A DNA stretch of 64,000 nt, from assembly GCF_000526515.1 (NCBI RefSeq), contig NZ_JAGF01000001.1:3906001-3970000 (forward strand), written 5' to 3'. Below, piece after piece: positions 2 to 17,229 of the stretch. This DNA is from Cellulomonas sp. KRMCY2 (lineage in GTDB: Bacteria > Actinomycetota > Actinomycetes > Actinomycetales > Cellulomonadaceae). Below the pieces are notes generated by a model. That model did not search any database. It was not told the DNA's origin and was given only the letters and a program-made list of their open reading frames with translations. A program made the translations under genes and the position numbers. The number at the start of each line of letters is the position of its first letter. The stretch's first letter is position 1.

Positions 2-3000
2 GGCAAGTCGGTCGTGCCGATGTTCAACATCTTCACCCACGTGCCGATCCCGACACGTCTGCGCGGACTGATCGTGGACGACATCAACTTCTCCACCGAC
101 CCGCGCTCGACGCTCTACGGCGAGAAGCAGGGTGTCCCGTTCGCACCCGTCGGCATCTACGACTTCACCAACCGCCTCGTGCAGACGGTCGAGTCCGACT
201 TCAACGGCATGTACGACGTGCTCCTGCCGTCGACCAACCACATCAGCTGCCCGACGCCCTCCGGCGTCTGCGCCAACATGTACCGGTTCGTCGGCAACGA
301 CCCGGGGATACCCGGGCGGCTCAACCCGAACTTCAACCCCCGGTACCGCACGATCTCGACCGAGTTCGAAGCCCTCCCCGGCCTCATCATCCCCACCGAC
401 CTCGCTCCGACCCAGGTCGGCGTGACCATCGCCTCCCCGACGACGGGCATCACGAACGCCATCGCCTGCTACGTCGACCAGGCCGCACCTCAGCTGTTCG
501 CCGTCTCCCAGCCGTACGTGAACGGGAGTGGATCGTTCACCGTCGCCGGCCTCGGCTTCGGCCCGACCCAGGGCACCGGGAACGTCACCCTCGACGGCAC
601 AGCCCTGCCCACCACCGCATGGAGCGACGCGACGATCACCGTGACGGTCCCGCCCGGCACCCCGGTCGGTCCGCACCAGCTCCGGATCACGGCCGCGAAC
701 GGAATGGCCACGGTCAACGGCCTCACGTTCCACGTGCTCGGCACCGGGTATGCGCCCACCGTGCGCGAGGTCGGTCCCGGCAGGACGTTCGCGACGATCC
801 AGGCCGCGCTCGACGCCGCATTCACCGCCGCCGAGAACGACCTCGTCGTCGTCTACCCGGGTACCCCCGACCTGGTCAACCCGCGGAACAACCCGCGCGG
901 TGCCTACTACGAGAACCTCATCGTCGCCTCGCCCGTCAAGCTCCAGGGCGTCGGCCCCGGCGGCTTCCAGGGGACCACGTTCGTCCCCGGTTCGATCATC
1001 GACGCGAGCGCCTTCGGTGGTGACACCGCCCTGGCCGCCGACTGGTACACGAAGATCGGCACCCTGACCTGGGACGGCAACCAGACCGTCAACGACGGTG
1101 CGGGGATCTACGTCCTCGCCTCGGAGAACGCGACGACGGACGCCGGCCGGGCACGTCAGTTCACCAGCGCCTACCCGGCCGCCATCGACGGCTTCGACAT
1201 CCGCGGAGGTGTCGAGCAGGGCTTCCCCGGGAACATCAACGACCTCACCGGCGCCCCGACCGGCCTGCCGCCGAACATCACCACGCAAGGCGGCGCGATC
1301 TTCGCCAACGCGTACGTCCGTCACCTGCGGATCACCAACAACGTCGTGCAGAACAACGGCAGCGGCTACGGGACGATCCGCATCGGCACCCCCGACCTGG
1401 CCTCGCCGGACACGAACCAGCACAACGAGAGCGTCCGGATCACCGACAACCGCATCATCGCCAACGCGGGCACGAACCTCGCCGGCGGGATCGGGATCTA
1501 CGCCGGCTCGGACGGCTACGAGGTCGCCCGCAACGACATCTGCGGCAACTTCTCGGTCGAGTACGGCGGCGGTCTGAGCGTCTACGGTCTGAGCCCGAAC
1601 GGCGCGATCCACCACAACCGCATCTACCTCAACCAGTCCAACGACGAGGGCGGCGGCATCATGATCGCGGGTGAGCTGCCTGCGACACCTGGTGCCCTCT
1701 CGCCCGGCTCCGGCCCGGTGGACATCTACGCCAACCAGATCCAGTCCAACCTGGCCAACGACGACGGCGGCGGGCTGCGCTTCCTGATGGCCGGCAACTT
1801 CCCGATGAACGTCTACAACAACATGATCGTCGACAACGTCTCGACCCACGAGGGCGGCGGCATCGGCCTCAACGACGCGCCGGACGTGCGGGTGTTCAAC
1901 AACACGATCATGAAGAACCTGACGACGGCCACGGCGCTGACCTCCAACGGCCAGCCGGCACCTGCCGGGCTGTCGACGTCGGTGAACAGCGACCAGCTGC
2001 AGGCCACGCTGCCGGGCGGATCGGCGCTCTTCAGCAACCCGAGTCTCTTCAACAACATCTTCTGGGACAACCGCGCCGGCACGCGGGCGGGCACCACTGT
2101 CACAGGCCTCGGCCTGGTCGGCGATGCGGCCCCGATCGAGCTGTGGGACCTCGGCGTCGCCGGCGGGACCGGGGTGCTCGCACCGACCAGCTCGGTCGTC
2201 CAGCAGGACGCCGGGACCCACCCGTACACGACCAGCCCCACCAACAGCTCCGCGGACCCGGCGGTCGTCGCCTCCTACGACGTGTCCGTCTCCTTCGCCA
2301 CCTGGCGGCAGAACCCCGCCTTCGTCGACGCGACGCTCGTCACCCTCGACGCGCCGCCGAACCTCCTCGGCAACTACCACCTGCCGTCCGGGTCACCCGC
2401 GATCAACCTCGGTGCCGCGACGTCCGGCGGAGTCACCGCACCCGCCACCGACATCGACGACCAAGGACGTCCCGCGGGCGGCGGCTTCGACAGCGGCGCC
2501 GACGAGTTCGGCGCGGTGGCACCCGCGCCGGCCTCGGACCTGTACGTCTCGACGCTCGGCAGCACCAACCCGCCCGGCGTGACCGGCACCGCCGACGACG
2601 CCGACATCTACCGATGGAACGGTTCCGCCTTCAACCGCGCGATCGACCTGACGGCAGCGCCGTACAACGCACCGGCCGTGTCCAACACCGACGGGTTCTC
2701 CCGGGTCGACGACACCCACTTCTACGCCTCCTTCAGCGGCCTGACCGCCCTGGCCGGAGTCGGCCTCGTCCAGGACGAGGACGTCGTCTACTTCAACGGC
2801 ACGGCGTGGTCGATGTGGTTCGACGGCAGCGCGCACGGTGTGGGCGGCGCCATCGACCTCGGCGCGGTGAGCGTCGTCGGCAGCACGCTCTACTTCTCGA
2901 CGAACAACACCGCCGTGCCGCCAGGTGCGGGTGGCACCGGTGACAACGCGGACGTGTACCGGTGGAACGCCAGTGTCCCCGGCAACTCGTACACCCGGGT

Positions 3001-4033
3001 CGTGGATGCCAGCCAGCCGCCGTACAGCCTGCCCAACTCCGGCTCCGCCACGGGCTCGACCAACCCCAACGTCGACGGTCTCGTCTTCGTCGACCCGACG
3101 CACCTGTACGCGTCGTTCAGCAACCCGACCACGACAGTGCCGGGCCTCGGCGCGGTCCAGGACGAGGACGTCCTGTACTTCAACGGTGCGGCCTGGTCGG
3201 TGTTCTTCGACGGCACCGCGCACGGGCTCGGCACGTCCGGGAACCTGGACGTCGACGCGATCTCGTTCACGAGCGGTGCGCTCCCGCCGCCGCCGCTGCC
3301 GCCGTTCCAGCCGCTGTACTTCTCGACCGTCGGAGCGGGCACCGTTTCCGGAGTGGCCGGCCCGTTCGAAGGTGCCGACGTCTACTTCGGCACCGGCAGC
3401 AGCTACAGCCGACTCTTCGACGCCTCGGCCTCGGGGGTGGCGTTCAGCCCGCTGGTCAACGTCGACGGCTACGACCGGATCGACGACACCCACGCCTTCT
3501 TCTCCTTCGCTGACCTCACCCTTCTCTCCGGGCTCGGGTTCGTGCAGGACGAGGACGTCGTCTACTACAACGCCGGCACGTGGTCGCTCTACTTCGACGG
3601 GAGCGTCCACGGGATGGCAACGAGCGGCAACCTGGACCTCGATGCGATCAGTGTCGTCGGTGCCGTCAACGGAACCGGTGGAACGCTGTACTTCTCCACC
3701 CTGGGCAACACCAACCCACCCGGCACCGGCGGGACCGCGGACGATGCGGACATCTACGCCTGGAACGGCACCGTGTACAGCCGGGTGATCGATGCCAGCG
3801 CCGCGCCCTACAGCCTGCCCGGCGGCGCGAACGTCGACGGCTACGTCAGGACCGACGCCACCCATGGGTACTTCTCCTTCAGCTCCGCCAGCACCACGGT
3901 GCCCGGACTCGGGGCGGTCCAGGACGAGGACGTCGTCGGCTACAGCGCTGGTACGTGGTCGGTCTACTTCGACGGCACCACCCAGGGCCTCACCGCGGAC
4001 AACCAGGACCTGGACGCCTTCGATGTCCCGTGA
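2..4033 (+). CDS. Giant secreted right-handed beta-helix protein with four C-terminal DEDV modules (5' partial)
   Basis: The reading frame is open at the left edge, so the true start lies upstream; about 1,343 residues are visible. From the N-terminus I see a Cna-B/carboxypeptidase-regulatory-like stretch, an IPT/TIG-type Ig domain (about residues 160-245), and then a long parallel beta-helix of pectin-lyase type (about 250-830). The helix is rich in short turns such as NNVVQNNGSGYGTI and GGGI. Four tandem modules follow, starting near residues 841, 957, 1099 and 1223, each holding DDADIY-WNG, VPGLG, QDEDV and YFDG motifs. It has no LPXTG motif. It is first in a seven-gene run, 52 nt ahead of a multicopper oxidase, so it is probably an extracellular scaffold or surface protein of that system. 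The exact function is unknown. A polysaccharide-binding or lyase role is possible, but I see no catalytic motif. Confidence 0.75.
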   Translation, partial: GKSVVPMFNIFTHVPIPTRLRGLIVDDINFSTDPRSTLYGEKQGVPFAPVGIYDFTNRLVQTVESDFNGMYDVLLPSTNHISCPTPSGVCANMYRFVGNDPGIPGRLNPNFNPRYRTISTEFEALPGLIIPTDLAPTQVGVTIASPTTGITNAIACYVDQAAPQLFAVSQPYVNGSGSFTVAGLGFGPTQGTGNVTLDGTALPTTAWSDATITVTVPPGTPVGPHQLRITAANGMATVNGLTFHVLGTGYAPTVREVGPGRTFATIQAALDAAFTAAENDLVVVYPGTPDLVNPRNNPRGAYYENLIVASPVKLQGVGPGGFQGTTFVPGSIIDASAFGGDTALAADWYTKIGTLTWDGNQTVNDGAGIYVLASENATTDAGRARQFTSAYPAAIDGFDIRGGVEQGFPGNINDLTGAPTGLPPNITTQGGAIFANAYVRHLRITNNVVQNNGSGYGTIRIGTPDLASPDTNQHNESVRITDNRIIANAGTNLAGGIGIYAGSDGYEVARNDICGNFSVEYGGGLSVYGLSPNGAIHHNRIYLNQSNDEGGGIMIAGELPATPGALSPGSGPVDIYANQIQSNLANDDGGGLRFLMAGNFPMNVYNNMIVDNVSTHEGGGIGLNDAPDVRVFNNTIMKNLTTATALTSNGQPAPAGLSTSVNSDQLQATLPGGSALFSNPSLFNNIFWDNRAGTRAGTTVTGLGLVGDAAPIELWDLGVAGGTGVLAPTSSVVQQDAGTHPYTTSPTNSSADPAVVASYDVSVSFATWRQNPAFVDATLVTLDAPPNLLGNYHLPSGSPAINLGAATSGGVTAPATDIDDQGRPAGGGFDSGADEFGAVAPAPASDLYVSTLGSTNPPGVTGTADDADIYRWNGSAFNRAIDLTAAPYNAPAVSNTDGFSRVDDTHFYASFSGLTALAGVGLVQDEDVVYFNGTAWSMWFDGSAHGVGGAIDLGAVSVVGSTLYFSTNNTAVPPGAGGTGDNADVYRWNASVPGNSYTRVVDASQPPYSLPNSGSATGSTNPNVDGLVFVDPTHLYASFSNPTTTVPGLGAVQDEDVLYFNGAAWSVFFDGTAHGLGTSGNLDVDAISFTSGALPPPPLPPFQPLYFSTVGAGTVSGVAGPFEGADVYFGTGSSYSRLFDASASGVAFSPLVNVDGYDRIDDTHAFFSFADLTLLSGLGFVQDEDVVYYNAGTWSLYFDGSVHGMATSGNLDLDAISVVGAVNGTGGTLYFSTLGNTNPPGTGGTADDADIYAWNGTVYSRVIDASAAPYSLPGGANVDGYVRTDATHGYFSFSSASTTVPGLGAVQDEDVVGYSAGTWSVYFDGTTQGLTADNQDLDAFDVP
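2536..4030 (+). repeat. Four tandem copies of a ~115-residue coding module
   Basis: In-frame units begin at about 2536, 2884, 3313 and 3682. Each encodes an LYFST start, a DDADIY-WNG segment, a VDGY-R-D-TH segment, and then VPGLG, QDEDV-YY, GTWS-YFDG and a closing DLDAI/DAFD. The third unit is the most diverged. The fourth is very close to the units ending the genes at 6760 and 12148. The Trp/Tyr/Asp-rich pattern suggests beta-propeller-like or calcium-binding beta repeats, but this is inference. Confidence 0.75.
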
Positions 4034-4085
4034 CCAGCGACTCCGCCCAGCCACTTCCACGGACGCACTCAAGGGAGACCCCGCC

Positions 4086-5402
4086 ATGAACGAACGGGCA
4101 GGACTCGACCGCCGTCAGTTCCTCAAGGTCGCCGGTGGTGTGGTGGCCGTCGCCGGGAGCGTCGCCTGGGCCGGCCGGGTGCTCGAGCCGGTGCCCGCCC
4201 TCGCGGCAACGGGTGCACCCGACCTCTACCTGGGCGGCACGGACGGGTGGATGTACCTGCCGCCGACGCCGGCGATCGCACCGTTCCATCCCGACGTCCT
4301 CGCGCCGTCCCCCCTGACGACCTACATCTTCGGGTTCCGCAACCTGACCGGGATGGACGACACCCAGAGGGCCAACCAGAAGAACAAGGCACAGCACTCG
4401 GCTCCGTTGTTCTGGGTGAACCAGTTCGACCCTGCGCATCCCGTCGACTTCACGGTGGCGGTCACCAACCTCGGCCTCGCACTGCGACCCGACCTGTTCG
4501 ACGCGCACACGCTGCACTGGCACGGGTTCCGCAACGTGATCCCGTTCTTCGACGGGGAGCCGTCCGGCTCGGTCGCCGTGCGGAGCGGGCGTGAGTTCAC
4601 CTATGTGTACCGGCCACGCGAACCGGGCACCTACATGTACCACTGCCACGTCGAGGACACCGAGCACGTCCACATGGGCATGACCGGCCTGGTGTTCGTC
4701 CGGCCCTTGCAGGACGGGAACACCTCCCACTACCCCAGCGGCAGGTACCTCTACAACGACGGCGACGGCTCGACCGGGTTCGACCGGGAGTTCGCCATGT
4801 TCATGTCCGAGGTGTGGGCAGAAGCGCACTGGGCTGACGCGCACATCCAGCTCCCCGAGTGGAGCGACTACCGCGCCGACTTCAGTCTGCTCAACGGCCG
4901 GGTCTACCCCGACACCATCGCTCCCAACGGCTCGATCGACCCGTTCGGCCCGGTCCACGACGCCGGCGGCGATCTCGTTCCGGTGCCCGGGTTCGAGCAG
5001 CTGAAGTACCAGCCGCACTCGTCGCTCGTGAACTGCAACGCCGGCGAACGCGTGGCCCTGCGGTTCTCCAACCTCGGTTTCCGCGAGCAGGCCATGACCA
5101 TCGCCGGCATCCGCATGCGGGTGGTCGGCCGGGACGCCACCCTGATGCGCGGACGCGACGGCACCGACACCTCCTACGAGACCGACACGCTCAACATCGG
5201 GCCGGGCGAGAGCTACGACGTCGTGTTCACGGCACCGGCCCATCAGGGCCCCGGGGACTACGACACCTACATGCTCTACAACCGCAACTACACCCGGTCG
5301 AACAACCGGGCACCGGGCGGGTTCGGCGGCGCGGCCACCGAGATCCGCGTCTACCAGAGCGGTGTGACCGCGCAGGCGTATCCGAACGACTGGGGGGTCT
5401 GA
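4086..5402 (+). CDS. Tat-exported multicopper oxidase
   Basis: The product is 438 aa. The ATG is preceded by AAGGGAG (4071-4077) at 8 nt. The N-terminus has a twin-arginine signal, DRRQFLKVAGG, followed by a hydrophobic stretch, so the protein is probably exported folded with copper. Copper-ligand motifs are HTLHWHG (H141, H144, H146) and YHCHVEDTEHVHMGM (H186-C187-H188, H194, H196, M197). The C-terminal domain has cupredoxin-like sequence but lacks the usual HPxHxH and second HCH motifs. Laccase-like enzymes of this class oxidise metal ions or phenols with oxygen; the substrate here is unknown. The next gene starts 5 nt downstream and carries the motifs missing here, suggesting the two products act together. 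The call as a multicopper oxidase family member is firm; activity on its own is not. Confidence 0.85.
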   Translation: MNERAGLDRRQFLKVAGGVVAVAGSVAWAGRVLEPVPALAATGAPDLYLGGTDGWMYLPPTPAIAPFHPDVLAPSPLTTYIFGFRNLTGMDDTQRANQKNKAQHSAPLFWVNQFDPAHPVDFTVAVTNLGLALRPDLFDAHTLHWHGFRNVIPFFDGEPSGSVAVRSGREFTYVYRPREPGTYMYHCHVEDTEHVHMGMTGLVFVRPLQDGNTSHYPSGRYLYNDGDGSTGFDREFAMFMSEVWAEAHWADAHIQLPEWSDYRADFSLLNGRVYPDTIAPNGSIDPFGPVHDAGGDLVPVPGFEQLKYQPHSSLVNCNAGERVALRFSNLGFREQAMTIAGIRMRVVGRDATLMRGRDGTDTSYETDTLNIGPGESYDVVFTAPAHQGPGDYDTYMLYNRNYTRSNNRAPGGFGGAATEIRVYQSGVTAQAYPNDWGV

Positions 5403-5407
5403 CCGCC

Positions 5408-6739
5408 ATGACCAGCGACAGCGGAGCCATGAAGATCTGGATGCCCAGGCGCGGCCGGCGCCGTGCGACGACGTTCGCCGCGCTCACGGTCGCCAGCGGC
5501 CTCGCGGCCCTGTCCGTCACACCGGCCGCGGCCGACGCACCTCCCCGGATCGGGATCGTCTGCACGACCGGGACGGCCGGCGTCGCGGACCACCCGGTCT
5601 TCGACCTGACGACCACGACGGGCTACATCAGCCTGCCCGACGGCAACACCGCCTTCATGTGGGGCTACTCGAGCGGCTTCGACTCGTTCCAGCACCCCGG
5701 CCCGGTGCTGTGCGTGAACGAGGGCGACACGGTCACGGTGATCCTGCACAACACGCTGCCCGAGGCCGCCTCGATCGTCTTCCCCGGCCAGGCGGACGTC
5801 CTGGCCGACGGCATCCCGGCGCAGCCGCAGCTCAACGGCAGCGGCGTGATCACCTCGCTGACCGACACGGCGCCGGCGAACGGCGGCACGGTCACCTACA
5901 GCTTCGTCGCCACCGACCCGGGCACGTACCTGTACGAGTCGGGCACCAACCCCGAGAAGCAGGTGCGGATGGGCCTGTTCGGGGCACTGATCGTGCGGCC
6001 GTCGATCGGCGCGGACCACGCGTACAACCGGCCGGACAGCCAGTTCACGCCGTCCGAGGAGTTCATGGTGCTGCTCTCGGAGATCGACCCCTACCAGCAC
6101 CAGGCGGTCGAGCAGGGCACGAGCTTCAACATGAACAACTACCACCCGCGCTACTGGCTGATCAACGGGCGAGGATTCCCCGACAGCATCGCGGACAACG
6201 GCGCCTCGTGGCTCCCGACCCAGCCCTACGGCTCACTCGCCTCGGTGTCCCCGTACGACGCCACCAGCCACCCGTACCCCGGCCTCGCCCGGTACCTCAA
6301 CGTCGGGACCGAGGACTTCCCCTTCCACCCGCACGGCAACAACGGCCTGGTGATCGGCCGGGACGGGCGGCCGCTCGAGGGCCCGACCGGCCAGGACCTC
6401 TCGTTCGAGAAGTTTGCGATCAACCTCGGTCCGGGACAGACGTGGGACGTCCTGTTCAAGTGGTACGACGCGGAAGGGTACGACCCGGTCACGAATCCCG
6501 TGCCGGTGACCGTGCCGAGCCTCACGAACCAGGAGGTCGGCGTCTTCTACAGCGGCAGCCCGTACCTGGGATCCACGCAGGCGATGCCCCCCGGCATCCA
6601 GACCCTGAACCAGTGCGGTGAGTACTACATCATCTCGCACAACCACGCCCTGTTCCAGCTCACCTCATGGGGCACGAACATGACCGGCCCGATCACGTAC
6701 ATGCGGATCAATCCTCCAACGCCCAACAACTGCGGCTAG
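5408..6739 (+). CDS. Secreted multicopper-oxidase-like cupredoxin protein with partial ligand set
   Basis: The product is 443 aa with a basic N-terminus and a Sec-type signal ending near AAADA. The first cupredoxin-like domain has lost the HxH pairs: where an oxidase would have YHSH it reads TYLYESG. The second half keeps FHPHG (H307, H309) and ends with C403 and SHNH (H411, H413), resembling the HPxH and late ligand motifs of multicopper oxidases. It sits 5 nt after the oxidase gene and 20 nt before another cupredoxin gene, so co-expression is very likely. It may be a partner subunit supplying ligands that the upstream protein lacks, or a copper carrier. An in-frame ATG at 5429 is an alternative start, but the SD-like G-run before 5408 fits better. 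Confidence 0.75.
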   Translation: MTSDSGAMKIWMPRRGRRRATTFAALTVASGLAALSVTPAAADAPPRIGIVCTTGTAGVADHPVFDLTTTTGYISLPDGNTAFMWGYSSGFDSFQHPGPVLCVNEGDTVTVILHNTLPEAASIVFPGQADVLADGIPAQPQLNGSGVITSLTDTAPANGGTVTYSFVATDPGTYLYESGTNPEKQVRMGLFGALIVRPSIGADHAYNRPDSQFTPSEEFMVLLSEIDPYQHQAVEQGTSFNMNNYHPRYWLINGRGFPDSIADNGASWLPTQPYGSLASVSPYDATSHPYPGLARYLNVGTEDFPFHPHGNNGLVIGRDGRPLEGPTGQDLSFEKFAINLGPGQTWDVLFKWYDAEGYDPVTNPVPVTVPSLTNQEVGVFYSGSPYLGSTQAMPPGIQTLNQCGEYYIISHNHALFQLTSWGTNMTGPITYMRINPPTPNNCG

Positions 6740-6759
6740 CACGAGAGGTGGGCGGAACG

Positions 6760-9720
6760 ATGACTCGAACCAGGACCCGGACCAACATGGCCTCGTCGAT
6801 CGTGGCCGGCGGAGCGCTGGTGCTGCTGGCGCTCGTGGCGCCGGCCGGACCCGCCGACGCGGCGACCGTACCGTTCGACCTGTACGCGGTCGCCGGGACG
6901 ACCTCGCTGCCGGCCGGTGGTCAGACTGTGACCGTCTGGGGCTACAGCACGACGGACACGCCCGTGGCCGCACCAGGTGGTCCGACGCTGGTCGTCGATC
7001 AGGGCGACACGGTCGAGATCACGCTGCACAACCAGCTGGCGGAGTCCACGGCTCTCCTCTTCCAGGGGCAGGCGATGGTCCCGGACCGAACCGGCGCGGC
7101 ACCGTCCGGGACGAAGGTCTACACCTTCACCGCTGACCGCCCCGGCACCTACCTCTACGAGGCCGGACTGGTGCCCAACGGTGAGCACCAGGTGGCGATG
7201 GGTCTGTACGGTGCCCTCGTCGTCCGCCCGGCGACGGCGGGACAGGCCTACGACGCCGCGACGACCGCGTTCGACGACGAGGCCGTCCTGGTCCTCAGCG
7301 AGATCGACCCGGCGCTGAACAACGCCGCCGACCCGGCGAGCTTCGACATGCGCAGGTACGCGCCGCGGTACTTCCTGGTCAACGGGAAGGCCTATCCGAA
7401 CACCGATGCCATCCCGACGGCAGCCGGCCGCACCGTCCTGCTGCGGTACGTCAACGCCGGCAACCAGTACCACTCCATGGCCGTGCTGGGCGCGCACCAG
7501 ACCGTGATCGCCCTCGACGGCAACCCACTGACCTTCTCGAGCCGGTACGTCGCCGAGACGTTCGGTCCGGGGCAGACGGCGGACGCACTGGTCACCGCCC
7601 CCGCCACGACGGGCGACGCGACGCTGCCCGTCTACGACGGCAGCCTCCTGCTGCACAACAGCACCCTGACCGGCTCCGGCGGCATGCTCACCTTCCTCGC
7701 GGTCACGGGCAGTGGCGGAGGAACGGATGGTGCCGGTCCGGTCGCCACCGACGTCGCCTTCGCCGCCGGCACGCTCACGGCCACCCTCGACGAGACCACA
7801 ACGGGCGGCGCCGTTGTCCAGGCCGCCGAGTACTACCTCGACTCGATGGCCGGGACCGCCACCGCGATGAGTGCAGCCGACGGAGCCTTCGACTCGCCGA
7901 GCGAGGACGTCACGCTCGCCGTGACCGCCCCCTCGGGGAACCACATCCTCTACGTGCGCGGCCAGGACGCACTCGGCACCTGGGGCACCGTCAGCTCGGT
8001 CCTGTTCGGCGGTGGCGACAGCAGCGGTCCGGCCACGACGTTCCCGACGCTGTCCCCCACACCGACGAACGGCTCGGCGGCCGTGACCCTGCACGCCACC
8101 GGGGACGACACCGCCACCGGCGGATCAGCGATCGCGGCAGCCGAGTACTTCGTCGACACCGTCGGCGCCGACGGCTCCGGCACCGCGATGACCGTCAACA
8201 CGCCCGCACCGACCGCCGACCTGAACGCCACGATCCCTGCGACGACGGTGAACGCGCTCGCCGAGGGCGCCCACACGATCGCGATGCACGCGCAGGATGC
8301 CGCAGGCAACTGGGGCCCGACGACCACGATCGGCCTCACGGTCGACAAGACCGGGCCGACAACCGGCGGGCTCTCCGCAGCACCCTCGCCGAACAACGGC
8401 ACGCTGGGCTACACCACGGCGACCCCGTCGGTACGCATCACTGCCACGACGCTGTCCGACGCTCTCGGCACCATCAGCGCGGCCGAAGCCTTCCTCGACA
8501 CGGTCGGTGCGAACGGCACGGGGATCCGGTTCAGCGCAGCCGACGGAACCTTCAACAGCGCGACGGAGGCCGGCTACGCCACGATCCCGTTGTCGACGGT
8601 GGTGCAGCTCGCCGATGGTGGGCACACGATCTTCGTGCACGCCAGGGATGCGGCGGGCAACTGGGGTCCGGTGGCCTCGGTGACGCTGGTCATCGACAAG
8701 GTCCGCCCGGCCCTCGGGGCGCTGTCCGTCACACCGAACCCGACCCAGGGCGCGACCACCGCGACCCTGAGCGCCACGGCCACCGACGCCGCCACGGCGA
8801 TCACCCGCGCCGAGTGGTTCACCGGCCCCGATCCCGGGATCGGTGCCGCGACCGCGATGACCATCACCGGCACCGGGCCCTACACCGCCACCTCGAACCC
8901 GATCGCCGTGGCCGGCTGGGCCGAGGGCACCTACACCCTGACCGTGCGAGCACGCGACGCGGCCGGCAACTGGAGCCCGACCGCCACCACCACCCTGACC
9001 GTGACCGCACCCGTGCACCTGTCCACCGTCGGCAACACCAACCCCCCCGGAGCCGGCGGCACCCCCGACGACGCCGACATCTACACCTGGAACGGGGCCA
9101 CCTACACCCGCCAGTTCGACGCCACGCTGGCCGGGCTCCCCGGCGGCGCGAACATCGACGGCTACGACCGCATCGACGACACCCACTTCTACCTGTCCTT
9201 CGCCGCCACCACCACCACCGTCCCGGGCCTGGGAACCGTCCAGGACGAAGACGTCGTCTACTACAACAACGGCACCTGGTCGACCTACTTCGACGGCACC
9301 GCCCACGGCCTGACCACCGCCAACCACGACCTCGACGCGATCAGCATCGCCGGGGCCGTCAACGGAACCGGCGGAACCCTGTACTTCTCCACCCTGGGCA
9401 ACACCAACCCACCCGGCCTCGGCGGGACCGCCGACGACGCCGACACCTACAGCTGGAACGGCACCACCTACACCCGCATCTGGGACGCCACCGCCAACGC
9501 CCTACCCGCCGCAGCCAACGTCGACGGCTACGTCCGCATCGACGCCGCCCACTTCTACCTGTCCTTCGCCGCCACCACCACCACCGTCCCGGGCCTAGGA
9601 GCCGTCCAAGACGAAGACATCACCTACTACAACAACGGCACCTGGTCGACCTACTTCAACGGCACCGCCCACGGCCTGACCACCGACACCCTCGACATCG
9701 ACGCCTTCGACACCCCCTGA
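6760..9720 (+). CDS. Secreted cupredoxin-domain protein with Ig-like repeats and two DEDV modules
   Basis: The product is 986 aa. The start ATG at 6760 follows GGCGGA at 6751-6756 and begins a basic Sec signal peptide ending near PADA. Residues 35-310 form two cupredoxin-like domains without canonical copper histidines; the best remnant is NQYHSM. Four Ig-like repeats follow, each closing with a DAAGNWGP-type strand (about residues 325-745). Two ~115-residue modules then start near residues 752 and 873. The protein probably sits outside the membrane as a structural or binding partner of the oxidases. Its last 1,020 nt are repeated, with no difference seen by eye, at the end of the subtilisin gene downstream. 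No enzyme activity can be claimed. Confidence 0.75.
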   Translation: MTRTRTRTNMASSIVAGGALVLLALVAPAGPADAATVPFDLYAVAGTTSLPAGGQTVTVWGYSTTDTPVAAPGGPTLVVDQGDTVEITLHNQLAESTALLFQGQAMVPDRTGAAPSGTKVYTFTADRPGTYLYEAGLVPNGEHQVAMGLYGALVVRPATAGQAYDAATTAFDDEAVLVLSEIDPALNNAADPASFDMRRYAPRYFLVNGKAYPNTDAIPTAAGRTVLLRYVNAGNQYHSMAVLGAHQTVIALDGNPLTFSSRYVAETFGPGQTADALVTAPATTGDATLPVYDGSLLLHNSTLTGSGGMLTFLAVTGSGGGTDGAGPVATDVAFAAGTLTATLDETTTGGAVVQAAEYYLDSMAGTATAMSAADGAFDSPSEDVTLAVTAPSGNHILYVRGQDALGTWGTVSSVLFGGGDSSGPATTFPTLSPTPTNGSAAVTLHATGDDTATGGSAIAAAEYFVDTVGADGSGTAMTVNTPAPTADLNATIPATTVNALAEGAHTIAMHAQDAAGNWGPTTTIGLTVDKTGPTTGGLSAAPSPNNGTLGYTTATPSVRITATTLSDALGTISAAEAFLDTVGANGTGIRFSAADGTFNSATEAGYATIPLSTVVQLADGGHTIFVHARDAAGNWGPVASVTLVIDKVRPALGALSVTPNPTQGATTATLSATATDAATAITRAEWFTGPDPGIGAATAMTITGTGPYTATSNPIAVAGWAEGTYTLTVRARDAAGNWSPTATTTLTVTAPVHLSTVGNTNPPGAGGTPDDADIYTWNGATYTRQFDATLAGLPGGANIDGYDRIDDTHFYLSFAATTTTVPGLGTVQDEDVVYYNNGTWSTYFDGTAHGLTTANHDLDAISIAGAVNGTGGTLYFSTLGNTNPPGLGGTADDADTYSWNGTTYTRIWDATANALPAAANVDGYVRIDAAHFYLSFAATTTTVPGLGAVQDEDITYYNNGTWSTYFNGTAHGLTTDTLDIDAFDTP
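8011..9720 (+). repeat. Long duplicated segment, copy 1 (with an extra 351-nt Ig module)
   Basis: 8011-8349 matches 13825-14163 with about five substitutions seen by eye. 8701-9720 matches 14164-15183 with none seen. The stretch 8350-8700 (117 codons, one Ig-like repeat) is present only here and is flanked by the shared bases CGACAAG at both module ends. This is direct-repeat DNA within coding sequence. Confidence 0.85.
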
Positions 9721-9785
9721 CCACACCCGCCCACCGGTCGGCAGCCCGCGCGCTGCCGACCGGCCGGCAGATCGGGAGCGATCCA

Positions 9786-10295
9786 GTGAGCACCGACACC
9801 CTGCCCCAGGTGGACGCCGAGCTGCCGACGAGGCGATCGCGCGCCCGGCGTCCGCATGCGACAGTGCTCGTCACCGTCCTGCTGCTCCTGGTGGTGGGCG
9901 GCGTCACGGCGGTCGCGCTGCGGCCGGCGGACAAGGCAGATGTCCGCGTCGGGACCGCTCTGGTGACCGCCGACGAGATGGCGGCCCGGTACGGGATCGA
10001 CGTCAACCTCATCGGCGTCACGGCAGCCGGCGGCCTGATCGAGTTCCGCTACCAGGTGGTGGATCCGGACAAGGCGGTCCGGATGATCCACGATCCGGAC
10101 CTGCTCCCGGTCCTGGTCATCGAGGACACCGACGAGACCCTGGTGATCTCGACCCCGCACCACACGTCCGAGCTCGAGCTCGGCGGGACGTACTTCTTCC
10201 TGCTCGCCAACGCCCACAACGCCGTCCACGAGGGCTCCCTGGTCACCCTCGTCATGGGTGACGCGCGTACCGAGCACATCGCGGTGCAGGGATGA
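9786..10295 (+). CDS. Membrane-anchored protein of unknown function in the copper operon
   Basis: The product is 169 aa from a GTG start, with GGGAG at 9774-9778 placed 7 nt upstream. An Arg-rich cytoplasmic N-terminus precedes one membrane segment (about residues 27-46). The remaining ~120 residues are predicted to be extracytoplasmic and contain VTAAGGLIEFRYQV, HDPDLLPVLV and a late YFFLLAN. Similar small anchored domains occur as hypothetical proteins in several phyla, as far as I recall, but I cannot name a family. The stop overlaps the start of the CopC-CopD gene (ATGA), implying translational coupling and a role near copper uptake. His and Met are few, so direct copper binding is uncertain. 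Confidence 0.7.
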   Translation: MSTDTLPQVDAELPTRRSRARRPHATVLVTVLLLLVVGGVTAVALRPADKADVRVGTALVTADEMAARYGIDVNLIGVTAAGGLIEFRYQVVDPDKAVRMIHDPDLLPVLVIEDTDETLVISTPHHTSELELGGTYFFLLANAHNAVHEGSLVTLVMGDARTEHIAVQG

Positions 10296-12151
10296 CCTGG
10301 TCCTGGGCGGGGACGCGCACGCGCCGGACGGCGATCCTGCTCGCCACCGTCGTGGTGCTCCTGCTCGGGGCGCCACCTGCGCTGGCGCACGGCGAGCTCG
10401 CCCGCTCGGACCCGCCCGACGGCGGCATGGTCGCAGTGGGCCGGACCTCCTTCAGCCTGTGGTTCACCGACGCCGTCGCACCCGGCGCGAGCACCTTCGG
10501 GCTGCGGACGATCGACGGCGTCGCGGTGGCGGTCGAGGTGGACGCGTCCGGGGCAGACGAGGGGTTCGTCCGGATCACCGCAGAGCCCCTCGCCGAAGGT
10601 ACCTACGTGCTCGAATGGACAGTGCTCTCCGTCGATGACGGCCACGCGTCCCGCGGGTCGGTCCTCTTCGGCGCCGGGATACGGCCCGACCTGCCGCTCT
10701 CGACCGGGGGCGGCCTACCGAGCGCGCCTGGCCTCGTCCTGCGCTGGCTCGACCTCTCCGCGATCATGCTCGCCATCGGCGCGCTCACGGTCTCCGGCCA
10801 CACCCTGGGGTCGATGGACGTTGCAGGGAGAGTCCCGCGCCGTAGGGCTCTGCTCATCGGAGCATCCGCAGCCGGTGTCGCCCTCGTGACCGGCGCGATC
10901 ACGCCCCTGCTGCGCACGTACGGTGCCGGGACCTCCGTCGGCCTCTGGCTCGATGCGACCCGGGTCACGCTGGTCGGCACCGCCTGGGGCCATCTCTGGA
11001 TGGCTCGGGAGGTCGCACTCCTCGTGGGCGCAGCGGTGCTGTGGTGGCGGGCGACCCACCCCGACGGACCCAGCCGGCGGGTCCTGCTCGCGGCCGGCGG
11101 GTGCCTGGTGGCTGCTGCATGGCTGGAGTCGTCGGCCGGCCACTCCTCGACGCTCTCCGCTCGCTCTGCGACGGCCGTCCTCGCCTCCGCGGCCCATCTG
11201 GTCGCCGCGGGGGTCTGGGTCGGTGGGCTCATCACGCTCGCCGTGTGCGTGATCCCGGGGATGCGCCGCGAACCGCAAGCCCGCGGACTCGTGCTCGCCT
11301 CCGTGCTGCGAGCCTTCAGCCCCATCGCGGCGGTCATGGCGGGCGTCGTGGTCGCCACCGGGCTGTACGAGTCCGGCCGCCACGTGCCCGACCTCCGATC
11401 GGTGGCCACCACCGTCTACGGCGGCACCGTGGCCGTCAAGATCGTCCTGGTCGCCGTCGCCCTGACGCTGGCCGGGATGAACACGGCGCTCCTGCACCCC
11501 GGGATCGCCGCGACGGTGGGCCGGGCGCTCGGCCGTCCGGCCGGCTGGGCGCCGATCGGCCCGCGCCACTTCCCGACCGTTGTGGCCGCCGAGGTCGCCG
11601 TCCTGGTCGTCGCCGTGGGCGGTGCTGCCCTGCTCACCTCCGTCGCGACGGCCAGGGAGGTCGGCCTGGCGACCAGCCGGACCACCGTGCACAGCGCCAA
11701 CGTCGACGGGCTTCTCATCACGTTCGAGGAGGTGCCCGCCGGACCGGGATCGAGCCGGCTGGTCGTCCGGACCCGCTCGACCGTCCGACCGGAGCCAGGT
11801 CCCGTCACGGGGGTGTCGGTGGCCCTCGCCGGCTCCGCCGGGGCAGCCACCAACGTTCCCCTGGAACGGATCGAGGCAGGCCGATACGAAGCCGGGACCG
11901 CTGAGCCGGCGCCTGGCGCCTGGACGGCGTCGATCACCGTCGAGCGGGACGGCGTCCCGCCTGCCGTCACCGAGGCGACGTGGACAGTTGTCCCGGCGGT
12001 CGCCACCGGTGCCGGGCGCCTCGAGATCGTGACCAGCGCTCTCGCGCTCCTCGTGCTGCTCGCCACGGTGGGCGCCGGCGTCGCCCGCCGCAGCGAACGC
12101 CCGGCACCGGCCGCGAACCCGCTCGTGGCTGCAACAAGGAGCCCACGATGA
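10292..12151 (+). CDS. CopC-CopD fusion, copper uptake/resistance membrane protein
   Basis: The product is 619 aa. A signal peptide ending in ALA leaves an N-terminal His (ALA/HGEL), as in mature CopC, where this residue ligates copper. The CopC beta-barrel (about 33-125) ends with a DDGH motif that supplies the other typical ligands. A multi-pass CopD region follows (about 145-455, eight or so hydrophobic segments). A periplasmic YtkA-like domain (about 470-580) and a last membrane segment complete the protein. The arrangement is close to YcnJ-type copper importers. Both ends overlap neighbours by 4 nt, so it belongs firmly to this operon and could load copper into, or recover it from, the exported oxidases. 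Confidence 0.85.
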   Translation: MTWSWAGTRTRRTAILLATVVVLLLGAPPALAHGELARSDPPDGGMVAVGRTSFSLWFTDAVAPGASTFGLRTIDGVAVAVEVDASGADEGFVRITAEPLAEGTYVLEWTVLSVDDGHASRGSVLFGAGIRPDLPLSTGGGLPSAPGLVLRWLDLSAIMLAIGALTVSGHTLGSMDVAGRVPRRRALLIGASAAGVALVTGAITPLLRTYGAGTSVGLWLDATRVTLVGTAWGHLWMAREVALLVGAAVLWWRATHPDGPSRRVLLAAGGCLVAAAWLESSAGHSSTLSARSATAVLASAAHLVAAGVWVGGLITLAVCVIPGMRREPQARGLVLASVLRAFSPIAAVMAGVVVATGLYESGRHVPDLRSVATTVYGGTVAVKIVLVAVALTLAGMNTALLHPGIAATVGRALGRPAGWAPIGPRHFPTVVAAEVAVLVVAVGGAALLTSVATAREVGLATSRTTVHSANVDGLLITFEEVPAGPGSSRLVVRTRSTVRPEPGPVTGVSVALAGSAGAATNVPLERIEAGRYEAGTAEPAPGAWTASITVERDGVPPAVTEATWTVVPAVATGAGRLEIVTSALALLVLLATVGAGVARRSERPAPAANPLVAATRSPR

Positions 12152-15100
12152 GGAAGATCCTGGCCGTCACAGCCCTGACGGCCCTGCTTCTCGGTGCCCT
12201 CAGCCCAGCGGCCTCCGGCCGGACGACGGCGACGGACGGCGACAGCGCCCTGAGCCCGGCGGTCCAGACGATCCTCGCCTCGCTCAGCCCGACCGACATG
12301 ACCACCGTCGTCGTGACCCTTCGGCCACGAGCCGACCTGTCGGCGGTGCGGAGATCGAACCGCGCTGCCCGCCTCCAGGACACGATCCGCGCGCTGCGAG
12401 CCACGGCAGACTCCTCCCAGGCACCGATCCGCGCCCGTCTGCGCACGCAGGCGGCCCTCGGAAGGGTCGCCAGGACCGCTCCCCTGTGGGTCGTCAACGG
12501 GATCTCGGTGACCGCCACCGCAGCCGTCATCCGCGAGCTGGCGACGCGCTCGGACGTGGCGAGCATCGCGGCCGACGCGATCACCGTCGTCCCGGCGGCC
12601 GGGCCCGCGGAGCCGAACCTCGTCACGGTCGGCGCCCCGGCGGCCTGGGACCTGGGACTGACCGGCCAGGGCGTCGTCGTCGCGACCCTGGACAGCGGCG
12701 TCGACCTGTCCCACCCGGACCTCGCGAGCCGATGGCGTGGCGGCACCAACAGCTGGTTCGACCCGTACGGCCAGCACCCCACGACGCCGACGGACCTGTC
12801 GGGGCACGGCACGGCCACCACCGGTGTGATCGTCGGCGGTGATGCCGGCGGGACGTCGATCGGCATGGCACCCGGTGCGCAGTGGATCGCGGCCAGGGTC
12901 TTCAACGACCAGGGCGGCGCGACTGCGACGGCCGTCCACCAGGCCTTCCAGTGGGTTCTGGACCCGGACAACGACCCGAGCACTGCCGACGCGCCCCAGG
13001 TCGTCAACGCATCATGGTCGATCGGTACCGGACCCGGGTGCGACCTGTCGTTCCAGCCCGACGTCCGGGCCCTGCTCGCGGCCGGCATCCTGCCCGTCTT
13101 CGCGGCGGGCAACTACGGTTCCGGCGGGTCGACGAGCGCCAGCCCGGCCAACTACCCGGAGTCCCTGGCCGTCGGTGCGCTGAACGGGAACGGGCTCGTC
13201 TTCTCCGCCAGCAGCCGCGGCCCCAGCACCTGCGGCGGACGGTCCGGCGTCTTCCCCGACGTCGTCGCTCCCGGGGTCGACATCCGCACCGCTGACCGCT
13301 ACGGCCTCTACCAGGTCGCCTCCGGGACGTCGATGTCCGCGCCGCACGCGGCGGGAGCACTGACGCTCCTGCTGAGCGCTTTCCCGGGGCTGTCCGTCGA
13401 ACGGCAACGGACCGCACTCCTGGGGACCGCGACCGACCTCGGACCGTCCGGACCGGACACGGCGTACGGCTACGGCCGGCTCGACGTCCTCGCCGCCTAC
13501 CAGTGGGTCGTCGCGGGGCCGGATCTCTCCGTGACGGTCGCTCCGGCCGAGGCGAGCGTGACTGCCGGCGACAGCGCGACGTACACCGTGCAGGTCACCC
13601 CCGTGAACGGCTTCGGCGCCGATGTCCCGTTGTCGTTGTCCGGCGCCGGCCAGGCCACCTGGTCCTTCACGCCGGCGGTGGTGCCTGGCGGCTCGGGCAC
13701 GTCCCAGCTGGTGGTCGTGACCACGAGCTCGACAGCTCCCGGCGCCTACCCCCTGACGATCACCGCCAGCAGCGGCGCGACCATCCGGTCTGCCACCGCG
13801 ACGCTGGCGGTCACCGCGCCCACCGGTGGCGACAGCAGCGGTCCTGCCACGACGTTCCCGACGCTGTCCCCCACCCCGACGAACGGTTCGGCGGCCGTGA
13901 CCCTGCACGCCACCGGGGACGACACCGCCACCGGCGGATCAGCGATCGCAGCAGCCGAGTACTTCGTCGACACCGTCGGCGCCGACAGCTCCGGCACCGC
14001 GATGACCGTCAACACGCCCGCACCGACCGCCGACCTGAACGCCACGATCCCTGCGACGACGGTGAACGCGCTCGCCGAGGGCGCCCACACGATCGCGATG
14101 CACGCGCAGGATGCCGCAGGCAACTGGGGCCCGACGACCACGATCGGCCTCACGGTCGACAAGGTCCGCCCGGCCCTCGGGGCGCTGTCCGTCACACCGA
14201 ACCCGACCCAGGGCGCGACCACCGCGACCCTGAGCGCCACGGCCACCGACGCCGCCACGGCGATCACCCGCGCCGAGTGGTTCACCGGCCCCGATCCCGG
14301 GATCGGTGCCGCGACCGCGATGACCATCACCGGCACCGGGCCCTACACCGCCACCTCGAACCCGATCGCCGTGGCCGGCTGGGCCGAGGGCACCTACACC
14401 CTGACCGTGCGAGCACGCGACGCGGCCGGCAACTGGAGCCCGACCGCCACCACCACCCTGACCGTGACCGCACCCGTGCACCTGTCCACCGTCGGCAACA
14501 CCAACCCCCCCGGAGCCGGCGGCACCCCCGACGACGCCGACATCTACACCTGGAACGGGGCCACCTACACCCGCCAGTTCGACGCCACGCTGGCCGGGCT
14601 CCCCGGCGGCGCGAACATCGACGGCTACGACCGCATCGACGACACCCACTTCTACCTGTCCTTCGCCGCCACCACCACCACCGTCCCGGGCCTGGGAACC
14701 GTCCAGGACGAAGACGTCGTCTACTACAACAACGGCACCTGGTCGACCTACTTCGACGGCACCGCCCACGGCCTGACCACCGCCAACCACGACCTCGACG
14801 CGATCAGCATCGCCGGGGCCGTCAACGGAACCGGCGGAACCCTGTACTTCTCCACCCTGGGCAACACCAACCCACCCGGCCTCGGCGGGACCGCCGACGA
14901 CGCCGACACCTACAGCTGGAACGGCACCACCTACACCCGCATCTGGGACGCCACCGCCAACGCCCTACCCGCCGCAGCCAACGTCGACGGCTACGTCCGC
15001 ATCGACGCCGCCCACTTCTACCTGTCCTTCGCCGCCACCACCACCACCGTCCCGGGCCTAGGAGCCGTCCAAGACGAAGACATCACCTACTACAACAACG

Positions 15101-15183
15101 GCACCTGGTCGACCTACTTCAACGGCACCGCCCACGGCCTGACCACCGACACCCTCGACATCGACGCCTTCGACACCCCCTGA
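12148..15183 (+). CDS. Secreted subtilisin-like serine protease (S8) with Ig-like and DEDV modules
   Basis: The product is 1,011 aa. The ATG overlaps the previous stop and is preceded by AAGGAG (12136-12141). A Sec signal leads into an I9-type propeptide (about 25-150). The S8 catalytic domain has D182 in LDSGVD, H220 in GHGTATTG, oxyanion N322 in AAGNYG and S395 in GTSMSAPH. A NEW1/CARDB-like beta domain follows (about 455-560), then two Ig-like repeats (about 560-775) and two ~115-residue modules from about 777 and 898. All catalytic residues are present, so it should be active. It may process or clear the secreted copper proteins. Its C-terminal half is a near-copy of the protein at 6760, probably from intragenomic recombination. 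Confidence 0.9.
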   Translation: MRKILAVTALTALLLGALSPAASGRTTATDGDSALSPAVQTILASLSPTDMTTVVVTLRPRADLSAVRRSNRAARLQDTIRALRATADSSQAPIRARLRTQAALGRVARTAPLWVVNGISVTATAAVIRELATRSDVASIAADAITVVPAAGPAEPNLVTVGAPAAWDLGLTGQGVVVATLDSGVDLSHPDLASRWRGGTNSWFDPYGQHPTTPTDLSGHGTATTGVIVGGDAGGTSIGMAPGAQWIAARVFNDQGGATATAVHQAFQWVLDPDNDPSTADAPQVVNASWSIGTGPGCDLSFQPDVRALLAAGILPVFAAGNYGSGGSTSASPANYPESLAVGALNGNGLVFSASSRGPSTCGGRSGVFPDVVAPGVDIRTADRYGLYQVASGTSMSAPHAAGALTLLLSAFPGLSVERQRTALLGTATDLGPSGPDTAYGYGRLDVLAAYQWVVAGPDLSVTVAPAEASVTAGDSATYTVQVTPVNGFGADVPLSLSGAGQATWSFTPAVVPGGSGTSQLVVVTTSSTAPGAYPLTITASSGATIRSATATLAVTAPTGGDSSGPATTFPTLSPTPTNGSAAVTLHATGDDTATGGSAIAAAEYFVDTVGADSSGTAMTVNTPAPTADLNATIPATTVNALAEGAHTIAMHAQDAAGNWGPTTTIGLTVDKVRPALGALSVTPNPTQGATTATLSATATDAATAITRAEWFTGPDPGIGAATAMTITGTGPYTATSNPIAVAGWAEGTYTLTVRARDAAGNWSPTATTTLTVTAPVHLSTVGNTNPPGAGGTPDDADIYTWNGATYTRQFDATLAGLPGGANIDGYDRIDDTHFYLSFAATTTTVPGLGTVQDEDVVYYNNGTWSTYFDGTAHGLTTANHDLDAISIAGAVNGTGGTLYFSTLGNTNPPGLGGTADDADTYSWNGTTYTRIWDATANALPAAANVDGYVRIDAAHFYLSFAATTTTVPGLGAVQDEDITYYNNGTWSTYFNGTAHGLTTDTLDIDAFDTP
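13825..15183 (+). repeat. Long duplicated segment, copy 2 (lacks one Ig module)
   Basis: This is the counterpart of 8011-9720. The junction at 14163/14164 joins sequence that in copy 1 is separated by 351 nt, keeping the reading frame. Read by eye, the last 1,020 nt are identical to copy 1. Confidence 0.85.
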
Positions 15184-15296
15184 CCGGGTCGCGCCGACGA
15201 CTCCCGCGGCCGATCGTGGCCCCGTTCCCTCGAAGCCTGTCCGATTTGCCCTAGTATCTGTCGGTTCAAGTCCCTAGACTCGGGCCGGAGGTGCAC

Positions 15297-15977
15297 ATGA
15301 GCAACGTCTTGGTCGTGGACGACGAGCATCGGATCCGCACTCTCATGACGCGGTCCCTCACCGTGGAAGGACACCGCGTCGTCACAGCCGACGACGGCTT
15401 CGCCGCACTGGAGCAGCTCGCCGCAGAGTCCTTCGATCTCGTCCTGCTGGACCTCATCATGCCGCGCTGCAACGGGCTCGCGGTGCTCTCGTTGATGAAC
15501 GAGCTCGGGGACTCGACGCCGGTCATCGTGCTCTCGGGCGTCACCGAGGTCGGGACCCGGGTGCAGGCGCTCGAGCGCGGCGCGGTCGACGTCGTGGCGA
15601 AGCCCTTCTCACTCGTCGAGCTGCTCGCCCGGACGCGCCGCCACCTCTCGACGACGAAGCCCGCCCAGCGCGAGCAGCGCGAGCAGCGCTACCTCGAAGC
15701 AGGTGGGATCCGGTTGGACCTCGACCGGCGGTGTGCCCGGATCAGGTCCCGCGAGGTCCTTCTCTCGGAGCGCGAGTTCTCCCTCCTGGCCCACCTCATG
15801 CGCCGCCGGGGCGAGGTGTGCAGCCGCGAGGAGCTCCTGCGCGACGTCTGGGGGCTGACCTTCGACCCCGGCAGCAACGTCGTGGAGGTCGCCGTCCGTC
15901 GGCTTCGGGCGAAGCTCGAGCCAGATCCACCCATCGAGACGATCCGCCGTGTCGGCTACTACTTCTCCGGCAGCTGA
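15297..15977 (+). CDS. OmpR-family response regulator
   Basis: The product is 226 aa: an N-terminal receiver domain with D8/D9, phosphoacceptor D52 (LLDLIMP) and the conserved Lys in AKPFS, then a C-terminal winged-helix DNA-binding domain ending RRVGYYF. I start it at ATG 15297 because GGAG (15287-15290) is well placed; a GTG two codons earlier is an alternative. TAGACT at 15275-15280 is a possible -10 element. The kinase start lies inside this gene's 3' end, so the pair is co-translated. The signal is unknown. Position next to the copper operon suggests, but does not prove, that it controls it. Confidence 0.9.
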   Translation: MSNVLVVDDEHRIRTLMTRSLTVEGHRVVTADDGFAALEQLAAESFDLVLLDLIMPRCNGLAVLSLMNELGDSTPVIVLSGVTEVGTRVQALERGAVDVVAKPFSLVELLARTRRHLSTTKPAQREQREQRYLEAGGIRLDLDRRCARIRSREVLLSEREFSLLAHLMRRRGEVCSREELLRDVWGLTFDPGSNVVEVAVRRLRAKLEPDPPIETIRRVGYYFSGS

Positions 15978-17175: not shown

Positions 17176-17229
17176 CGACGCCCGGCGCGGCGACGACCAC
17201 GGCGGAGCTGGCGTCCGGCTCGATGATCT

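Follow-up and report, generated by a model that had tools for sequence, protein, structure and literature searches.

A Cellulomonas operon predicted to divide the four-copper site of a multicopper oxidase between two paralogous proteins

What is built by an operon in which three consecutive genes encode relatives of multicopper oxidases and none of the three products carries a full set of copper ligands? This question is raised by a locus in a 64,000-nucleotide stretch of DNA from Cellulomonas sp. KRMCY2 (the window), in which seven genes, designated P1 to P7, follow one another on the + strand. To our knowledge, multicopper oxidases normally hold all site ligands on copies of one gene product. 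The analysis described below led us to the reading, to which we assign a probability of approximately 0.7, that the operon encodes an extracellular, surface-tethered multicopper oxidase with a single four-copper site split between P2 and P3. A more specific form of this proposal is that the oxidase is obligately heteromeric, that its trinuclear cluster is drawn from two paralogues while a third, copper-dead paralogue tethers it to a giant extracellular scaffold, and that the whole is a separate-subunit counterpart of ceruloplasmin and MnxG, conserved as a cassette across several phyla; we consider this form a little better than an even bet.

P2, P3 and P4 are paralogous to one another, and all three have the fold of two-domain laccases. 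Pfam and NCBIfam assigned Cu-oxidase domains and a weak twin-arginine translocation (Tat) signal to P2, and Cu-oxidase_3 to both P3 and P4. The three genes and the ligand motifs are located as follows.

4086-5402, + strand: P2, two-domain copper oxidase subunit with a Tat signal; predicted type-1 site and first trinuclear half, in domain 1
4506-4523, + strand: P2 HTLHWH ligand motif, residues 141-146; His at the three positions in 87/87 homologues
4641-4682, + strand: P2 HCHVEDTEHVHMGM ligand motif, residues 186-199; C187, H188, H194 and M199 in 87/87 homologues, H186 in 86/87
5408-6739, + strand: P3, reciprocal two-domain subunit with the predicted second trinuclear half in domain 2 (from alignments, a structural model and Foldseek)
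6326-6334, + strand: P3 HPH pair, H307 and H309; His in 84/84 homologues
6638-6646, + strand: P3 HNH pair, H411 and H413; His in 82/84 homologues, gap in 2/84
6760-9720, + strand: P4, cupredoxin-fold protein of two domains that lacks the copper ligand motifs and continues into immunoglobulin (Ig)-like repeats and two C-terminal modules

Homologues were collected by a P2 scan of one genome each of 84,980 species. This returned 330 P2-relative stretches, the best 80 of which gave 79 loci, and eight loci from searched genome samples brought the set to 87. At least two pairs are duplicates (L030 with L110, L032 with L120), leaving approximately 85 distinct loci, and near-copies such as L087 and L088 are also present. 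To set the ligand register, profiles were aligned with two type C two-domain laccases, 2zwn and 3g5w, which were the best PDB matches of the P2 profile and aligned with it over both domains.

In P2, the predicted type-1 ligands are H141, C187, H194 and M199, and four trinuclear histidines are found at H144, H146, H186 and H188. All eight of these domain-1 ligands were kept in the 87 homologues with the single exception of L102, which has Leu in the H186 column. The trinuclear columns of P2 domain 2, which are His in laccases, were occupied mostly by Thr, Ala or Asp, Tyr and Arg, with one stray His. P3 is the mirror image: its seven domain-1 His/Cys columns contained no His or Cys in any of the 83 sequences with letters there, and the domain-2 trinuclear histidines H307 and H309 (84/84) and H411 and H413 (82/84, two gaps) were retained. 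No single chain carried all eight trinuclear histidines, four being on P2 and the other four on P3. The type-1 ligands were likewise present in P2 and lacking in P3 and P4, and neither HCH nor HxHG was found in any of 78 P4 homologues. The initial annotation had described two degenerate cupredoxin proteins, a description that misjudges P3, which with its two HxH pairs appears to carry the complementary half of the active site; P4 has neither motif. The idea that P3 and P4 are equally degenerate was rejected on the same grounds.

The reciprocal pattern was also seen in loci found without reference to P2 motifs. With P3 as the query, the neighbouring P2 had the full set of eight domain-1 ligands and lacked all four domain-2 histidines in 14/14 loci (from 13 other genomes). 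Two further P3 matches in genome G732 were left unscored, one (L135) starting inside P3 at a contig start and the other (L134) having a P2 that the locus edge cuts at residue 141. In L134, P3 is spread over two frames.

The predicted structure of P3, built from the window sequence and 56 of 74 usable homologues, had a mean predicted local distance difference test score (pLDDT) of 87.1, with low values for residues 1-41. Its best Foldseek matches were again 2zwn and 3g5w, aligned over 373-393 columns with template modelling scores of 0.74-0.76 by target length and 0.54-0.55 by query length.

The same division of ligands was found in distant versions of the cassette. A tblastn search of a plasmid collection with P3 gave eight records, all from Cupriavidus or Paraburkholderia, and the two examined, from Cupriavidus metallidurans CH34 and Paraburkholderia caribensis MBA4, have the order P2, P3, a fused P4-P1 and P5. 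By alignment, both P2 proteins keep the eight domain-1 ligands and lack the domain-2 histidines, and both P3 proteins keep the four domain-2 histidines and lack the seven domain-1 His/Cys residues, at approximately 33-35% identity to the window proteins in each case. The fused protein, 2708 or 2744 aa in length, has a P4-like start and is P1-like in its remainder. This natural fusion suggests that P4 may link the oxidase to an extracellular scaffold formed by P1. Upstream in CH34 are type II secretion genes G, F and E, further pseudopilin genes with N-methylation motifs and a secretin gene, which suggest an oxidase working outside the cell. Downstream in CH34 is a cytochrome c-like gene (21.1 bits against a cut-off of 21.3), and cytochrome c genes above the cut-off lie downstream in L078 and L089, the latter with SCO1/SenC as well. 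A downstream c-type cytochrome is a possible electron partner. Among the proteobacterial loci, c-type cytochrome-like genes of approximately 560-600 aa lie downstream in L078 (18221-19999), L089 (18229-20076) and L136 (25717-27510).

PMC13151041 describes two-domain oxidases as trimers in which domain 1 of a protomer and domain 2 of its neighbour together form the trinuclear site. Since the trinuclear site of two-domain laccases lies between neighbouring subunits, a site shared by P2 and P3 is the best reading of the ligand pattern. The gene order, the reciprocal ligands and the natural P4-P1 fusion are read directly from sequence, and the P3 fold from a prediction; copper binding, contact between P2 and P3, a trimer and its stoichiometry, the roles of P5, P6 and P7 and the nature of the substrate are inferred. 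The type-1 copper of P2 domain 1 (H141, C187, H194 and M199) would accept electrons from the substrate. P2 domain 1 would contribute H144, H146, H186 and H188 to the trinuclear cluster and P3 domain 2 the remaining H307, H309, H411 and H413. P2 and P3 would meet outside the membrane, where the cluster would form at their interface and reduce O2 to water; one complete site per P2-P3 pair is the simplest reading of these sequences. The copper-free paralogue P4 would take the third place in the laccase-type trimer and connect the oxidase with the beta-helix scaffold P1. P5 and the CopC-CopD fusion P6 probably aid copper supply, and P7 is probably the protease that processes P1 or P4. Obvious candidate substrates are a metal ion and phenolic compounds.

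The operon is more than a chance assembly, because the P1-P5 genes present keep their order and strand in 86 of 87 loci, the exception being L069, in which a P5-like match lies upstream on the opposite strand. Absence of conserved synteny had been named at the outset as what would refute the gene set, and conserved synteny was found. P1 was found in 79 of the 87 loci, P3 in 84, P4 in 78, P5 in 64, P6 in 35 and the protease in 31; contig ends were not excluded as the cause of the P6 and protease misses. The three loci without P3 each have at most 308 bp left after P2, and P1 is missing only where at most 506 bp remain upstream of P2. Of the nine loci without P4, eight either stop before P3 or leave no more than 346 bp beyond it, and the gaps in P5 are mostly locus ends, with the exception of L059. 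The seven-gene operon originally proposed is real in the window, and its conserved core is P1-P5; CopC-CopD and the protease were found less often, and the view that the subtilisin and the common C-terminal module are core parts was rejected since neither was found in many loci.

The 79 scan loci comprise 41 from Actinomycetota, 33 from Chloroflexota, two from Pseudomonadota, one from Myxococcota and two unassigned. Searches with P3 found strong P3 homologues with P2 and P4 homologues adjoining in 6 of the 297 genomes of an order sample, the host included (three of the nine P3 matches there were weak, E 3e-11 to 9e-9), and P3 homologues in 3 of 396 genomes of a phylum sample and 8 of 394 of a class sample, each again counting the host. 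P3 was not found in the one other genome of the same genus nor in the 19 same-family genomes searched, and the cassette is thus patchy. The P2 of some Chloroflexota metagenome-assembled genomes is 70-74% identical to that of the window over the best segment, which suggests either that the cassette has moved between phyla or that contigs were misbinned. In G388, P4, P5 and P6 are on a separate contig. G500 has two copies (L038 and L039) and G732 more than one (L133-L135), and L092 (Oscillochloris sp. ZM17-4) contains a second P1-P2 set after the first one.

In a tree of 22 loci and the window, P3 formed one clade (support 98/76) and P4 another (100/99), and the P2 clade was interrupted solely by the outgroup row L012. 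Both outgroup rows, L012 and L013, were taken as the longest frame at the respective locus and appear to be translated in the wrong frame, which makes the intrusion of L012 meaningless. With P3 and P4 each in one clade and P2 broken only by this row, the triplication looks older than the spread of the cassette.

Several observations weigh against a divided oxidase site. By sequence alone, P3 domain 2 matches 2zwn and 3g5w weakly, at 10.4 and 2.8 bits. The type-1 Met column of P3 is Leu in 76 of 83 sequences and retains Met in seven. Two single histidines of P4 are conserved, H238 in 69 and H90 in 64 of 78 homologues, and a stray HxH occurs somewhere in 34 of the 78 P4 open frames, so copper on P4 is not strictly excluded. 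The collection itself is biased, as the search patterns behind 79 of the 87 P2 loci included ligand motifs. L082 has no P4 despite 3 kb of downstream sequence, and the Tat-like motif is not visible in the Cupriavidus and Paraburkholderia P2. A P2-P3 fusion, which would have been proof of contact, was not seen in the 87 loci; the one frame with matches to two of the three paralogues is P4 of L089, in which the P3 match overlaps the P4 matches and is a paralogue cross-match.

The operon spans approximately window positions -2818 to 15183, in a 4.5 Mb genome that is a single contig. From P1 to P7 the stop-to-start spacings with the called starts are +52, +5, +20, +65, -4 and -4 nt, in agreement with the seven genes and gaps of -4 to +65 nt first reported. 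A scan of 3900-17400 found no promoter-like sites; it gave two terminator-like sites, both on the opposite strand, where 2.1 would be expected by chance. The remaining genes are listed here.

2-4033, + strand: P1, in-window part of a secreted giant (Pfam/NCBIfam domains; 53 long homologues aligned)
9786-10295, + strand: P5, 169 aa, probable membrane helix and beta-sandwich (predicted structure)
10292-12151, + strand: P6, CopC-CopD fusion (PF04234 and PF05425 above cut-off)
12148-15183, + strand: P7, secreted S8 protease with Ig-like repeats and two C-terminal modules (Pfam)
15291-15977 and 15949-17175, + strand: OmpR-type response regulator and histidine kinase, downstream of P7

The initial annotation had begun P1 at position 2. 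The open frame in fact starts at the first GTG after a stop, at approximately window position -2818, some 2.8 kb before the window, and encodes 2283 aa. SdrD_B (prealbumin-like) and TIG domains scored above cut-off, choice-of-anchor Q was present, and the right-handed beta-helix was weak and below cut-off; repeats of the C-terminal module follow choice-of-anchor Q at the end of the protein. Of the 79 P1 homologues, 53 were long enough to align. E1460, D1488/E1489, D1527/D1528 and H1556/E1557 (window approximately 1559-1852), which precede the GGG turns of the beta-helix, were invariant in all 53 and are not kept in the Cupriavidus and Paraburkholderia versions. A general metal site on P1 was dropped because those versions differ, and is left as a lead; the residues possibly form a clade-specific metal or sugar site.

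The C-terminal module, of approximately 120 aa per repeat, is common to P1, P4 and P7, as had been noted from the sequence, and no further open frame in the whole genome matched it at E <= 1e-5; elsewhere it was found in only some of the 79 loci surveyed. At their 3′ ends, P4 and P7 share 96.8% DNA identity over 1147 bp (8576-9722 and 14039-15185), and the encoded module protein is identical. This suggests that the two ends recently exchanged sequence, with gene conversion a likely route. A second repeat of 368 bp (8010-8377 and 13824-14191) is 95.7% identical. The direct repeat could loop out P5 and P6.

The first domain assignments were borne out by Pfam and NCBIfam, with P5 having no match above cut-off in either. 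The P5 model, built from the window and 44 of 58 usable homologues, had a mean pLDDT of 90.4 and showed a helix at residues 24-44 followed by strands; no PDB match was found at E <= 0.001. In the Chloroflexota loci L056 (16300-17295) and L060 (15977-17110), a second P5-like domain lies behind an apparent multi-helix membrane segment, and the L056 protein has no Pfam match. P6 scored 46.6 bits for CopC (PF04234, cut-off 23.3) and 43.9 bits for CopD (PF05425, cut-off 32.1), and was below the NCBIfam equivalog cut-offs. Its predicted mature CopC part begins with His and keeps the D-x-H motif; by regular expression, similar motifs were present in 31 and 30 of 35 homologues, respectively. P7 matched Peptidase_S8 at 172.2 bits and was below the cut-off for mycosins (TIGR03921, 112.8 bits against 278.75).

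By a loose pattern, a Tat-like motif was present in 82/84 P2, 25/83 P3 and 8/78 P4 sequences, and by a strict pattern in 45, 0 and 0. The motif being common in P2 and rare in P3 and P4, P2 and P3 may leave the cell by different routes in many hosts. Homologues of the regulator pair are found upstream of P1, in divergent orientation, in 16 of the 79 scan loci, all actinobacterial (L094, L095, L097, L099, L101, L104-L107, L109, L110, L113, L117-L119 and L121), and in L028 and L030, which makes regulation of the operon by the response regulator and histidine kinase a possibility. In the window the pair is downstream of P7, and so it is in L061, there on the other strand.

No recognised system had been matched to the operon initially, and a literature search of open-licence papers likewise gave no named match: among the papers it listed, none was recognised as describing a heteromeric split multicopper oxidase or this operon. 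The nearest relatives are the type C two-domain oxidases (the metagenomic laccase 2zwn and the Nitrosomonas europaea blue copper oxidase 3g5w), which also have two cupredoxin domains; domain 1 holds the HxxHxH/HCH motifs and the type-1 site, as in P2, and domain 2 the HxH pairs, as in P3. In those enzymes, however, the ligands are on one gene product, whereas here P2 and P3 each carry a part of them and both motifs are missing from P4. CopA/PcoA-type copper-resistance oxidases likewise place multicopper oxidase domains beside CopC and CopD, but P2, P3 and P4 scored only 37.2, 34.5 and 41.7 bits for TIGR01480 (CopA-type, cut-off 478.95), and that system is not known to include a giant P1 or P5. 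Six-domain oxidases (ceruloplasmin and MnxG-like proteins) are explained in PMC3600357 as the result of triplicating a two-domain unit, with no more than one trinuclear site surviving. They are single chains, in contrast to the three separate genes here, no P2-P3 fusion having been seen in the examined loci. Of the extracellular oxidation or surface-assembly system proposed from the sequence, the part supported is a conserved and secreted oxidase system that is related to copper and has genes for copper supply.

Other explanations differ in how much of this they retain. P2 and P3 could be active as heterodimers or heterohexamers without P4, which would merely be an adhesin. P4 has its own long Ig-like tail and no copper ligand motifs, as this would predict, but its cupredoxin-type homology spans both domains, its clade is distinct, and only one of its misses in the 87 loci is away from a locus end; we find the proposal doubtful. 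A system for Mn(II) or Fe(II) oxidation is also unlikely, if worth keeping in mind. Multicopper oxidases are among the known bacterial Mn oxidases, and the type II secretion genes of CH34 and the cytochrome c genes of L078 and L089 would suit such a role; a metal substrate site was not identified, however, and the invariant acidic residues of the P1 beta-helix (53/53) are not kept in the Cupriavidus and Paraburkholderia versions.

Less probable again is that the oxidase cross-links P1 and its neighbours into a coat or sheath, with P7 as maturation protease and the oxidation of external substrates secondary. The near-constant presence of P1, missing only at truncated loci, the P4-P1 fusion and the restriction of the module to P1, P4 and P7 are in keeping with a coat, but P7 and the module were not found in many loci. 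It is improbable, and the least favoured of these explanations, that there is no oxidase. P2 would then transfer electrons through its type-1 site, P3 would bind or deliver copper independently of it, and the half-sites would be relics or bind single coppers. Such an arrangement would explain why no single chain has a complete trinuclear site, and would accord with CopC-CopD in the operon and with the two proteobacterial loci that have cytochrome c genes, one also with SCO1/SenC. Relics decay, yet the histidines missing from P2 are kept in P3 even at approximately 33-35% identity, and P2 keeps four trinuclear-type histidines although type-1 chemistry uses only its four other ligands. The divided oxidase site is the reading that we prefer.

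If P2 and P3 do share one oxidase site, P2 expressed alone would falsely appear inactive, and calling P3 or P4 alone an oxidase would mislead. The operon would be a separate-subunit counterpart of the route, proposed in PMC3600357, from a two-domain trimer to a six-domain oxidase with one surviving site. It would show how the formation of an O2-reducing cluster can be delayed until the components come together extracellularly, and it would point to a surface oxidation system, so far undescribed, behind up to 330 P2-like stretches in public genomes, 79 loci of which were examined here.

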